From an uncultured Bacteroidales bacterium (GTDB lineage: Bacteria > Bacteroidota > Bacteroidia > Bacteroidales > F082), in assembly GCA_900318085.1 (NCBI GenBank), contig ONJF01000001.1, positions 96,557-160,556 on the forward strand: DNA of 64,000 nucleotides, read 5' to 3'. Every line of letters starts with the position of its first letter. Positions within the stretch are counted from its first letter, which is position 1. This document shows positions 46,247 to 60,413 of the stretch, in pieces. The notes beneath the pieces are model-generated. The model was given only the letters and a program-made list of their open reading frames with translations, ran no database searches and had not been told where the DNA came from. The position numbers and the translations under genes are program-made.

Positions 46247-49200
46247 ATGGAAATCATCAACAACATATCCAAAACCCTCAAAGATGACCTGATGGTGGAA
46301 ATCAAGCCCGAAAGCAAGATTTCCATTGCGGCCTCGTGTTTTTCGATTTATGCTTTTCAGGAGTTGAAAGAGCAGTTGAAGGACATCAAGGAACTTCGCT
46401 TCGTTTTCACGTCGCCCACTTTTACCACGGACAAGGTGAGTAAGCAACAGCGAGAGTTCTATATCCCTCGGTTGTATCGTGAGAGAAGTCTGTATGGATC
46501 CGAGTTTGAGATCAAATTGAGGAATGAGCTGACGCAGAAGGCTATCGCTAAGGAATGTGCAGAATGGATTAGGCAAAAGGCTTGCTTTAAGTCAAACAAG
46601 ACCAACGAGAGCATGACGGGTTTTGCCAATGTTGACCAGACCAATTACATGCCGTTGAATGGTTTCACCACGGTAGATTTGGGATGTGAGAAAGGCGATA
46701 GCGCTTATACGATGATTGTGAAAAACGATTATCCTTCCTCGAAAGAGTTTTTGACTTTGTTTGACCAAATCTGGAATGACAGCTCAAAACTACAAGTGGT
46801 GACGGATGATGTGATTGATAACATTTCAAACGCTTATAAGGAGAATGCACCTGAGTTTCTGTACTTTGTCACGCTTTACAATATATTCCACGAGTTTTTG
46901 GATGACCTGTCGGAGGATGATTTACCTAACGAAGCCACAGGGTTTAAGAACAGCCTCATTTGGAACAAATTGTATAACTTCCAGAAAGATGCGGCCTTGG
47001 CCATCATTAACAAACTTGAAAAATACAATGGTTGCATTTTGGCGGATAGTGTAGGTTTGGGTAAAACGTTTTCGGCGTTGGCGGTCATCAAGTATTACGA
47101 GAACCGCAACAAGTCGGTGCTGGTGCTTTGTCCCAAGAAACTGAGTGACAACTGGATGACCTACAGAAGCAATTATGTGAACAACCCCATTGCAGGTGAC
47201 AGGTTGCGTTATGATGTGCTTTATCACACGGATTTGTCACGGACTTCAGGCGTGTCGAATGGGATGGAGTTGAACCATATCAACTGGGGCAACTACGACC
47301 TCGTGGTCATTGACGAAAGTCACAATTTCAGGAATGGTGGCAAGGTGACTGCTTCTGAGGACGATGAAGACCCCAAGGAAAACCGCTACCTGCGTTTGAT
47401 GAACAAGGTGATTAAAGCGGGCGTTAAAACTAAAGTGCTCATGCTTTCGGATACGCCTGTCAACAACCGTTTCAACGACTTGAAGAACCAGTTGCAGCTG
47501 GCCTACGAAGGCGATGCTTCGAGAATCAATGGTTTGCTGAAAACGGAGAAGCCTATCGATGAGATTTTCCGTCAGGCACAAAGAGCGTACAATGAATGGG
47601 TAGAGTTGCCACTTGATGCCCGAACGACCGAAAGATTGTTGAAGTCGCTGAGTTTTGATTTCTTTGAAGTGCTCGATTCGGTGACTATCGCCCGAAGCCG
47701 TAAACATATTGAACAGTTTTACGATACGGCTGACATTGGTAAGTTTCCGACACGTTTGAAACCCATTTCCAAAACGCCTCCTTTAACGGATATTGACAAG
47801 GCTATTACGTTTAGGGACATCATCGAAATCGTTCAACAGCTTAATCTTTCCATTTATACCCCTTCGGCATTCATCCTGCCGAGCAAGAAAGACAAGTACG
47901 GCATTGACACCGAGGACGAATTGGATGCTGAGACAGGCTCACACCGCCTTTCCATCGAAGACCGTGAGTTGGGTATTCGTCGTCTGATGGGTATCAATAT
48001 GCTAAAACGTCTCGAGAGCTCGGTTAACTCGTTCCGTTTGACCATTAGCCGAATCCAGCAGCTTATCGCCAATATGATTGAAAAGATTGATTCGCGGACG
48101 GAGGAGGAATATGTTGAGGAATTTGACTTCGACGACCTTGACATTGAGGATGAAGGCGACACCATCATTGGCAACAAGAAAAACAAAATCGACCTGCGGG
48201 ATATTGACACCATTTCTTGGAGGAGATACCTGGTCGAGGACAAAGAACGTTTCGATTTGTTGCTTCTGATGCTGAAAGATATCAGCCCTGAACACGACAG
48301 CAAATTGCAGCAACTTGTTTGTGATTTGAGGGAGAAGTTTGCCCATCCCATCAATGGATCAAACAAGAAAGTGCTCATTTTCACCGCTTTCGCTGACACT
48401 GCCGATTATCTTTACAAGAATCTGGCACCGTTGATTTTGGAGAAAACAGGGTTGCATTCCGCGATGGTGTCGGGTACGATTGAGGCGAAAAGCACCGTCA
48501 AGTTGAAACAAAAGATGGACTTCAACACGGTATTGACCTTGTTCTCGCCTGTGTCGAAGGAAAAGGATGTTTTGTTCCTTGGTTTGAAGGATGAGGTTGA
48601 TGTGCTGATTGCCACGGATTGCATCTCGTAAGGCCAAAACCTGCAAGACTGTGATTACCTAATCAATTATGACATCCATTGGAATCCCGTTCGCATCATC
48701 CAGCGGTTTGGGCGTATCGACCGTATTGGTAGCAAAAACGAGGTGATTCAGCTGGTGAACTATTGGCCCGACATGGAGCTTGACGATTACATCGACCTGA
48801 AAGGCCGTGTGGAGTCGAGAATGAAGATTTCGGTGCTGACCAGCACGGGCGACGACAATCCTTTGTCGGTGGAAGAAAAAGGCGATTTAGAATACCGTCG
48901 CCAACAGCTCAAACGCTTGCAGGAGGAAGTGGTTGACCTCGAAGATATGAATACGGGTATCAGCATCATGGACTTGGGACTGAATGAGTTCCGCCTTGAC
49001 TTGTTGGATTACATGCACGAAGGCCACGACATCGAGCACACGCCATACGGGATGCACGCCGTGGTGAAAGGCGGCGAAGGGATGCCATCTGGGGTGATAT
49101 ATGTGCTGCGGAACCGTTCGCAAGGCGTTAACATCGACCATAAGAACCAACTGCATCCGTTCTATTTGGTGTATGTGGACGATAATGGTGGTGTAGTGGT

Positions 49201-49486
49201 GAACCATCTTTCGCCCAAGACATTGCTTGATGATTTCCGATTGCTATGCAAAGGCAAAGCGAAGCACGACAAATCACTTTGCGCCGCTTTCAACAAGGAG
49301 ACCAAGGATGGCAAGAATATGAAGCATTATTCTGAATTGCTGGGCAAGGCCATCCAGTCCATCATCAACGTGAAGGAGAAGAGCGACATGGATTGCTTCC
49401 TCGAAGGGGTTCAAACGGAACTTTTCACCAAGGAAATCAAAGGTTTGGATGACTTTGAACTGATTGACTTCTTAATTGTGAGATAA
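46247..49486 (+). pseudogene. SNF2-type helicase split by an in-frame TAA
   Basis: An SF2 helicase of the kind seen with type III R-M and DUF4391 genes. An N-terminal region (about 1-170, SIAASCFSIYAFQELKEQL) resembles the phospholipase-D-like domain of such helicases, without a visible HxK pair. Helicase motifs are Walker A LADSVGLGKTFSAL (Gly270-Thr274), DESH from Asp356 and LSDTP near 400-404. The frame is broken by TAA at 48629-48631 (codon 795), where relatives read ISEGQNLQ; one base change from GAA would create it. The downstream part is open in the same frame to 49486 and contains motif VI, QRFGRIDRIGS from codon 819. The first product (794 residues) therefore lacks the arginine fingers. 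The Asp in LSDTP, where Ala is usual, is a second oddity. A TTG at 46235 is an alternative start. Confidence 0.85.
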
Positions 49487-60300: not shown

Positions 60301-60413
60301 CGAAGATTGACTGTGCCAAGAAGTTGTTCAACAATGTCTCAACCAGTCAGGTGAGATATGGTTGTGTGGATTCTTATGGCAGTTTACTGGAAGTGATGAA
60401 GGGGTTGAATTGA
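57363..60413 (+). CDS. type III restriction enzyme, Res subunit
   Basis: The translocase/endonuclease subunit that with Mod cuts DNA carrying unmethylated sites. Walker A is [10 protein letters not shown] (Gly104-Thr108) and motif [10 protein letters not shown] (Asp233; DEPQ is specific to this class). [20 protein letters not shown] and [13 protein letters not shown] give motifs V and VI. The C-terminal nuclease shows PDWAIAF (Asp945) and AETKG (Glu964, Lys966), the PD-ExK catalytic set. The frame is intact over 1016 residues and every catalytic motif is present, so restriction should be functional if Mod is. Codon use and GC match mod's ends and not the two genes in between, which suggests mod-res was the original pair. 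Confidence 0.94.
   Translation: [1016 protein letters not shown]

Follow-up and report, generated by a model that had tools for sequence, protein, structure and literature searches.

We have analyzed a putative defence locus in a 64,000-nucleotide stretch of DNA (the window) from an uncultured Bacteroidales bacterium (assembly GCA_900318085.1, contig ONJF01000001.1, positions 96,557 to 160,556). The locus, at 46247-60413 of the window, contains ten genes, all on the + strand, running from a helicase to Res, the endonuclease of a type III restriction-modification (R-M) system. The helicase, DUF4391, Mod and Res genes are termed the core, and genes lying in the gaps of the core are termed cargo. 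The features are listed below; L numbers denote loci, and G numbers genomes, of the comparison that follows.

46175-46246, + strand: region upstream of the operon, with a TAnnTTTG-type box at 46216-46223; left edge of the block missing from the empty site L157
46247-49486, + strand: core helicase gene, N-terminal phospholipase D (PLD)-like fold and SNF2/SF2 helicase; in-frame stop at 48629-48631
49486-50094, + strand: core DUF4391 gene; near-identical cassette tracts start within its 3′ third
50095-53145, + strand: slot A, the gap between DUF4391 and Mod, 3051 bp
50185-51468, + strand: RloA, AbiLi-like AAA ATPase, slot A cargo; TAnnTTTG box 39 nt upstream, at 50146
51455-52066, + strand: RloB, AbiLii-like, slot A cargo; 14 bp overlap with RloA
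52084-52731, + strand: TM215, slot A cargo; two N-terminal hydrophobic stretches, read from the sequence; 99-100% DNA identity to L059 and L035
52744-53103, + strand: Trypco2-like small protein, slot A cargo; below the family cut-off; travels with TM215
53146-55062, + strand: Mod, type III methyltransferase; middle (about nt 650-1290, taken as the recognition region) strongly divergent between relatives
55063-57362, + strand: slot B, the gap between Mod and Res, 2300 bp
55069-56100, + strand: AlbA_2/Schlafen-type protein, slot B cargo; 99% DNA identity to L060
56100-57356, + strand: TPR protein, slot B cargo; N-terminal hydrophobic segments, read from the sequence
57363-60413, + strand: Res, type III endonuclease/helicase; motifs GTGKT, DEPQ and PD-ExK

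The junctions between successive genes are -1, 90, -14, 17, 12, 42, 6, -1 and 6 bp, i.e., all between -14 and 90 bp, as expected from a first-pass annotation that had described genes on one strand with short or overlapping junctions. No terminator-like site was found on the + strand between 46000 and 60800, all 11 sites found being on the - strand, and only short, weak tandem repeats occur across the locus. The intergenic DNA carries a TAnnTTTG box, a motif that we take to be a Bacteroidales promoter, 31 nt before the helicase (within 46200-46246) and 39 nt before RloA (within 50095-50184).

Family searches support most of the gene identities in that annotation. Pfam matches were obtained for the SNF2 helicase (1.7e-11), DUF4391 (2.8e-26), AAA_21 (7.9e-18) and RloB (1.6e-22) in the first half of the locus, and for N6_N4_Mtase (4.4e-33), SLFN_AlbA_2 (6.6e-14) and TPR (7.2e-34) in the second. 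PADLOC assigns the slot A pair to AbiLi (4.1e-62) and AbiLii (5.6e-11), and Mod to MTase_III (2e-235). The AAA_21 ATPase is followed directly, with the 14 bp overlap, by the RloB-family gene, which is the arrangement of RloA-RloB and AbiL. The assignments to helicase, DUF4391, RloA/RloB, Mod, AlbA_2, TPR and Res thus stand, with two reservations: the helicase is split by a stop codon, and the Trypco2-like gene falls short of the Pfam gathering score (16.3 against 24.2 bits, E 0.012). TM215 matched no family above cut-off in these searches. Sequence searches for relatives of known structure drew a blank with RloA at E 0.1, and the best match of RloB (E 0.13) is not convincing.

Mod (E 7.1e-62) and Res (E 8.6e-73) each have a match in the EcoP15I structure (4zcf), and their motifs are kept. 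In Mod the DPPY motif at 127 precedes FSGSATT at 418 (FxGxG-type), the order of a type III methyltransferase. Res combines helicase motifs with a PD-ExK nuclease, and is related to EcoP15I Res as a type III endonuclease should be; it matches the NCBIfam type III endonuclease model over the whole length (4e-114), although below its cut-off (382.5 of 564 bits). By homology with EcoP15I, the core is expected to methylate sites in the host DNA and to cleave incoming DNA that lacks the modification. DUF4391 gave a good structural model (predicted local distance difference test score, pLDDT, 86.8) but no significant match in the PDB (best E 0.07).

The helicase of the window consists of two open frames in the same reading frame, split by a TAA at 48629-48631 in the region of motif V. 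The motif is uninterrupted in 73 of the 76 loci with more than 400 helicase residues, and intact copies exist in relatives. Since the window genome is a draft of 93 contigs, the stop could be a sequencing error. If the helicase is indeed broken, the window locus may work only as Mod-Res plus cargo. The predicted structure of the N-terminus has a PLD-like fold (pLDDT 71.1) with SauUSI as best Foldseek match (PDB 7clg, E 2.7e-4). Neither of two consensus sequences, one from 60 aligned helicases and the other from 35, shows a conserved histidine, and hence there is no HKD motif. An active PLD nuclease was therefore rejected in spite of the fold, and the domain is probably not a nuclease.

Does this arrangement occur elsewhere? 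Within the family, 27 of 173 genomes have DUF4391, and 24 of these carry it as a gene of its own size. The genome collection gave 112 places, and we retained 80. We laid out 81 de-duplicated loci including the window, leaving out L132 (whose DUF4391 had not been retained as a gene), 21 duplicate contigs and three loci in which BLAST gave no match to DUF4391. The collections hold one genome per species, so the genomes compared are of different species. The order helicase-DUF4391-Mod-Res recurs across the 81 loci, in records titled Bacteroidales, Clostridia and Verrucomicrobia, which bears out the earlier description of these four genes as a recognized neighbourhood. One locus, L089, has two tandem Mod genes. 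Related Mod genes also occur without DUF4391 (Mod model match at 1e-60 in 57 of 171 genomes), and the window genome itself has a second, more distant type III Mod (G000:C86:711-1592).

The gaps of the core are filled at two main places. A gap of at least 300 bp is present at slot A in 56 of 69 loci and at slot B in 48 of 60, against 15 of 78 between the helicase and DUF4391. The two insertion places proposed at first are thus confirmed, with a rarer third to be added. Where all three gaps are known (57 loci), four loci have none filled. The slot open reading frames (ORFs) of at least 80 aa lie on the operon strand in 162 cases out of 176.

As a control, 20 stretches around other Mod genes were examined. 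Five (L164-L168) have a Mod-Res gap of 964-3819 bp, and five (L171, L172, L173, L176, L180) one of -1 to 9 bp. Among the remaining ten, seven lack a Mod-then-Res pair and three (L177, L182, L183) have gaps of 1263-1636 bp; L177 and L183 have a Res close to that of the window, and L182 has the helicase. These filled gaps exclude the idea that the slots are unique to DUF4391 loci. L164-L168 form a sister type III group (Mod 39-47% identical) in which DUF4391 was not detected, and the five systems without a gap are more distant. The order in L182 is Mod-x-Res-helicase, with the contig's distant DUF4391 behind.

What do the slots contain? Scans against PADLOC and Pfam took in 150 of the 154 cargo proteins, and 40 cluster representatives were scanned against Pfam. 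The families found are RloAB/AbiL, AAA_15/21 ATPases, AlbA_2, AbiGi, RhuM, TIR, SIR2, zeta and Fic, together with PIN_8, GmrSD, Abi_C, AbiJ_NTD4, DUF4238, DUF1016 and AAA_13. The AAA_13 protein, in slot A of L123 (E 6.1e-161), presumably belongs to the PrrC/RloC family. For 13 of the 40 representatives, Pfam gave nothing at 0.01. The commonest cargo without a family is a protein of about 591 aa, with 11 examples in slot A of 10 loci (e.g., L103:5269-7044), whose scanned representative is among those without a Pfam match.

The slots differ from their surroundings. Taking the most frequent PADLOC family in each set, it accounts for 17 of 150 cargo proteins against 3 of 102 nearest flanking genes, and the Pfam matches of the flanks include many housekeeping families. 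ORFs matching window proteins had been excluded from the flank set; a recount with three ORFs per side gave only 3 such cases (TonB, ClpB and DUF3667), so the control was not shaped by the exclusion. The slots also differ from each other. Of 30 cargo clusters seen in at least two loci, 26 are confined to one slot; in 2000 label shuffles, which ignore relatedness, this number averaged 7.7 and never exceeded 14.

By the terms of the first-pass annotation, a lack of enrichment of the inserted genes beside type III R-M genes would have marked the grouping as chance; TM215 and RloB are enriched there. All five strong matches to TM215 in 172 genomes lie inside these loci, with one weak match elsewhere. 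RloB was located at 82 places, spread over 60 of 172 genomes. Twelve lie directly downstream of DUF4391, where chance would put well under one by our estimate from gap sizes; Mod is visible behind 11 of the 12, and the last is at a contig end. A further RloB, situated immediately ahead of a Mod on a short contig, is a possible thirteenth case. Yet 70 RloB lie outside these loci. Three genomes have a close AlbA relative (71-100%) in these loci, and six more distant relatives (36-42%) lie outside them. A second RloB of the window genome, with an internal stop, is at G000:C74:6725-7123.

These distributions bear on the possibility that the slots are a passive hotspot, where insertion before mod or res is harmless, the operon promoter comes free, and there is no functional link between cargo and core. 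The 70 RloB elsewhere and the four loci with no gap filled are what this predicts, as is a core order that is unchanged by exchange. It would not lead us to expect that defence families recur in the slots relative to the nearest flanks, that slot ORFs are so biased to one strand, or that slot content is specific (with the caveat on relatedness given above). We regard a purely passive hotspot as doubtful.

The combinations of modules vary freely. The 31 loci with both slots annotated have 31 combinations, made up of 23 slot A sets and 25 slot B sets. That of the window is unique, although, taken singly, its slot A set is shared among four loci and its slot B set between two. Differing combinations are expected among distant loci, but they hold within the genus of the window too. 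The locus had been suggested to be a defined composite system with conserved spacing. That part of the description is not supported: the length as well as the content of the slots varies, down to the unfilled loci. The compact packing of ten genes on one strand would suit a single layered immune system in which all ten cooperate, but a combination seen once in 31 loci, a broken helicase and modules that are swapped separately (see below) would not. We have rejected the fixed composite on the count of combinations, and consider such full cooperation very improbable.

Comparison with relatives shows that modules of the slots have been exchanged. As a yardstick for divergence we used clpB, for which the window is 88% identical to G108 (the genome of L059) or G112 (L035), and 93% identical to G071 (L060). 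Between the window and L059, DUF4391 is 84-96% identical to about nt 450 and 68-71% in its last part, and RloAB is 67-85% identical, climbing to 89% at the end of RloB. The identity then rises to 99-100% through TM215-Tryp (97% in the last window of the comparison). In Mod, the N-terminal part is 85-95% identical, the middle 35-63%, and most of the C-terminal part 93-97%. Between L035 and L059, the first two thirds of DUF4391 are 67-75% identical; the identity is then 97-100% as far as Tryp, taking in RloAB and TM215, and 84-95% from where Mod starts. The AlbA gene is 99% identical between the window and L060. Further instances are a Fic gene that is 100% identical between L053 and L059, and two other slot A genes that L055 and L063 have in common at 99-100%.

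Sliding windows place the edges of these tracts within the 3′ third of DUF4391 on the left, and near the start of Mod or at module ends on the right; BLAST matches run on to Mod nt 612-618, the right-hand edges at the start of Mod being those set by the sliding windows. Tracts of 99-100% identity, set against 88% and 93% for clpB, indicate that modules have been exchanged between species recently and separately from the core. Judged from the same alignments, the middle of Mod, taken as its recognition region, varies independently of the cargo. From the position of the edges, the modules would be exchanged by homologous recombination in the flanking core genes.

Most of the loci are metagenome-assembled according to their record titles, and chimeric assembly in metagenome bins might in principle generate such a mosaic. 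However, the near-identical RloAB tract is present in L035, L058, L059 and L060 under three project names (RUG, SRR and RGIG; L035 via its duplicate L065), and a gene-start fragment described below in L061, L064 and L066 likewise comes under three (SRR, RUI and UBA). We consider assembly chimeras an extremely improbable explanation.

A second kind of trace lies between stacked modules. In seven relatives, 40-91 nt of the start of res or mod are found between modules of one slot. In slot B the fragments are of res: nt 1-65 in L035, 1-50 in L061 and L063, 12-51 in L064 (which retains an ATG) and 1-51 in L066. The slot A fragments, one in L062 and two in L120, are of mod and extend to about nt 88; DUF4391 3′ sequence follows, within about 40 nt, the L062 fragment and the first of the L120 fragments. 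The fragments of L061, L064 and L120 are 82%, 90% and about 75% identical to the gene, and others are near-intact at 96-98%.

As a control, tiles of 120 nt were cut from every core gene of every locus and matched to slot DNA. The 117 tiles of Mod and Res starts gave these fragments, each being backed by 2 to 39 tiles, apart from that of L066, where Res is cut by the end of the stretch; slot B of this locus lay outside the tile scan and its fragment comes from a separate comparison. The 3837 interior tiles matched slot DNA only in the split genes of L090 and L128, beside a helicase fragment in L116, and as short single-tile matches in L081, L111 and L127. We have not counted as fragments between modules the edge matches of L088, L119 and L125, the split genes of L090 and L128, the helicase 5′ fragment of L116, or the short single-tile matches of L081, L111, L127 and L130. 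L116 is an odd case, with a fragment of the helicase 5′ end in slot A (4330 onwards) between DUF4391 and Mod.

A module inserted along with a fresh copy of the start of the downstream gene would leave fragments of this kind, and a module carried with the 3′ end of DUF4391 would produce the pattern of L062. Might they instead be working leaders, for example coupling translation to the next module, and not leftovers of recombination? They retain the start region of res or mod. In slot B, all five can be read as open frames (17-33 codons), with ends that range from 34 nt ahead of the start of the next module to 14 nt past it. This regularity is not shared by slot A, where one of the L120 fragments has a stop after 6 codons and the frame in L062 closes over 200 nt short of the next module, and the L061 and L064 fragments have diverged. 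We think it rather unlikely that leader function accounts for the fragments, although both readings can hold together. In L066 (18726-18818) a frame starts in the res fragment and its stop overlaps the start codon of the next module, an arrangement that could couple translation.

How might the cargo relate functionally to the core? The embedding of cargo within the operon, and the AAA_13 protein in L123, recall guarded back-up toxins, by which analogy Mod, Res and the helicase would hold the cargo inactive until a phage disables restriction, as for EcoprrI with PrrC. Such a model has been published for PrrC (PMC3710099, PMC3506569). In the present loci, however, cargo has been swapped against differing Mod recognition regions and helicase alleles, which argues against a tight fit between proteins, and a promoter-like box precedes RloA. 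Moreover, TgvAB, in a type I operon, is described as protecting alone, though 10- to 100-fold less than the whole cluster against several phages (PMC11411939). Guarding by the core seems to us unlikely here.

The reading that we favor, with a probability of roughly 0.72, is that the type III R-M operon helicase-DUF4391-Mod-Res serves as a carrier of exchangeable defence cassettes. The modules in the gaps, lying on the operon strand, would be read from the operon promoter and in part from promoters of their own. In the window they would be four, namely RloAB, TM215-Tryp, AlbA_2 and TPR, each of which would most probably act as an abortive-type effector, either independently or as a back-up. New modules may enter just upstream of the next core gene, stranding some tens of bases of the older mod or res start; this pathway is our proposal, while the fragments themselves are observed in the relatives. 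More tentatively, and with rather less confidence than we have in the carrier itself, the operon might be a platform that accretes cassettes without an integrase, with gene ends (DUF4391 3′, and mod and res 5′) as recombination arms. Modules would be stacked in two ordered slots, leaving the core intact and giving species-specific combinations, and the fragments would record past additions, some being perhaps kept for coupling translation.

A number of observations weigh against the carrier and its proposed mechanism. The loci were chosen by DUF4391, so that the constant association of the core is partly by construction, and some of the gaps scored as filled (L090, L116, L128) hold pieces of split core genes. 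Defence genes occur in the flanks too (AbiEii 3, AbiD 2, PDC-S57 2, and single matches to type II, type IIG, TmtA, McrBC and AAA_13), and most RloB live elsewhere, as noted. Fragments were found in just 2 of the 54 stretches of slot A and 5 of the 48 of slot B; those of L061, L064 and L066 are followed by a common leader and are probably one event; the open slot B frames may have a function; and the window's own slots yield no fragment at E 1e-3. The predominance of metagenome assemblies is to be set beside these points.

The block as a whole also appears to have moved. In the window it is flanked by a DUF3667 gene and clpB, and in G071 (L157) these two genes adjoin, forming an empty site; the DUF4391 locus of G071 is on another contig. 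G140 holds its own version of the block at the same DUF3667-clpB place. Among seven clpB stretches (L157-L163), one is empty and one occupied, and five have no DUF3667 match beside clpB. No integrase or target duplication was seen in the junctions at the block edges, to which the search was confined. Elsewhere in the window, ARAGORN calls a tRNA-Ala at 41971-42064 (anticodon agc), whose 94 nt are an unusual length for tRNA-Ala.

Effectors embedded in R-M operons are already established. PrrC is embedded in EcoprrI, a type Ic system (PMC3710099, PMC3506569). The locus resembles EcoprrI in having a defence effector gene within an R-M operon, and L123 has an AAA_13 protein in slot A; the ten window proteins scanned (Res and the joint helicase being outside the scan) gave no AAA_13 match. 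EcoprrI is of type I with one effector, for which the literature describes guarding, whereas here the system is of type III, with two slots and many unrelated effectors. The two-gene modules DarTG2 (PMC12255303) and TgvAB (PMC11411939) also lie between R-M genes, but of type I operons, and at a single insertion place in the cases described; the hsdS-hsdR site has been called a potential recombination hotspot (PMC12255303). Makarova et al. (2012) pointed to toxin-like domains in many type I and type III systems, and to what seems to be "repeated toxin displacement" (PMC3506569); DUF4391 goes unmentioned in the full text, and no route of displacement is given in the portions available.

The Hma-embedded candidates (HEC) found through "guilt by embedding" (Payne et al., 2024, preprint), which we know from the papers citing it (PMC12255303, PMC12988326, PMC11411939), are likewise unrelated defence genes inside a multi-gene defence operon, and one HEC-01A model matches 14 of the 150 cargo proteins. 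The present operon is a type III R-M system with DUF4391 and not Hma: the HmaA model matches the helicase weakly (9e-5, against 2.2e-74 for C3a139), and Mod is of type III. Exchange tracts and gene-start fragments further distinguish it from HEC as presented in those papers.

Individual genes resemble other systems in part. The slot A pair matches AbiLi and AbiLii, but is nested here in a type III operon beside further modules. The AriA model of PARIS matches RloA (2.9e-16), but its partner is AbiLii by PADLOC and RloB by Pfam, not a Toprim-type AriB. The helicase is DrmD-like (3.1e-17), but at 71.9 of 610 bits it is far under the NCBIfam cut-off, and there is no drm family among the matches listed for the other window genes (Res being outside the PADLOC scan), so that the locus is not DISARM. 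SauUSI shares a PLD-like fold N-terminal to a helicase, but the window-type helicases lack the HKD motif of a SauUSI-like PLD restriction enzyme.

Embedded defence genes have already been used to find new systems, and the two slots are a further source of candidates, such as the slot A protein of about 591 aa. How such genes enter an operon without breaking it is a route that the cited literature, in the portions available, does not explain; the tracts and fragments suggest exchange through core genes and stepwise addition before the next gene. Our literature search found no description of a helicase-DUF4391-Mod-Res operon. As far as that search shows, then, what is new relative to the known systems is the DUF4391 type III operon as a two-slot carrier, together with its exchange tracts and gene-start fragments.

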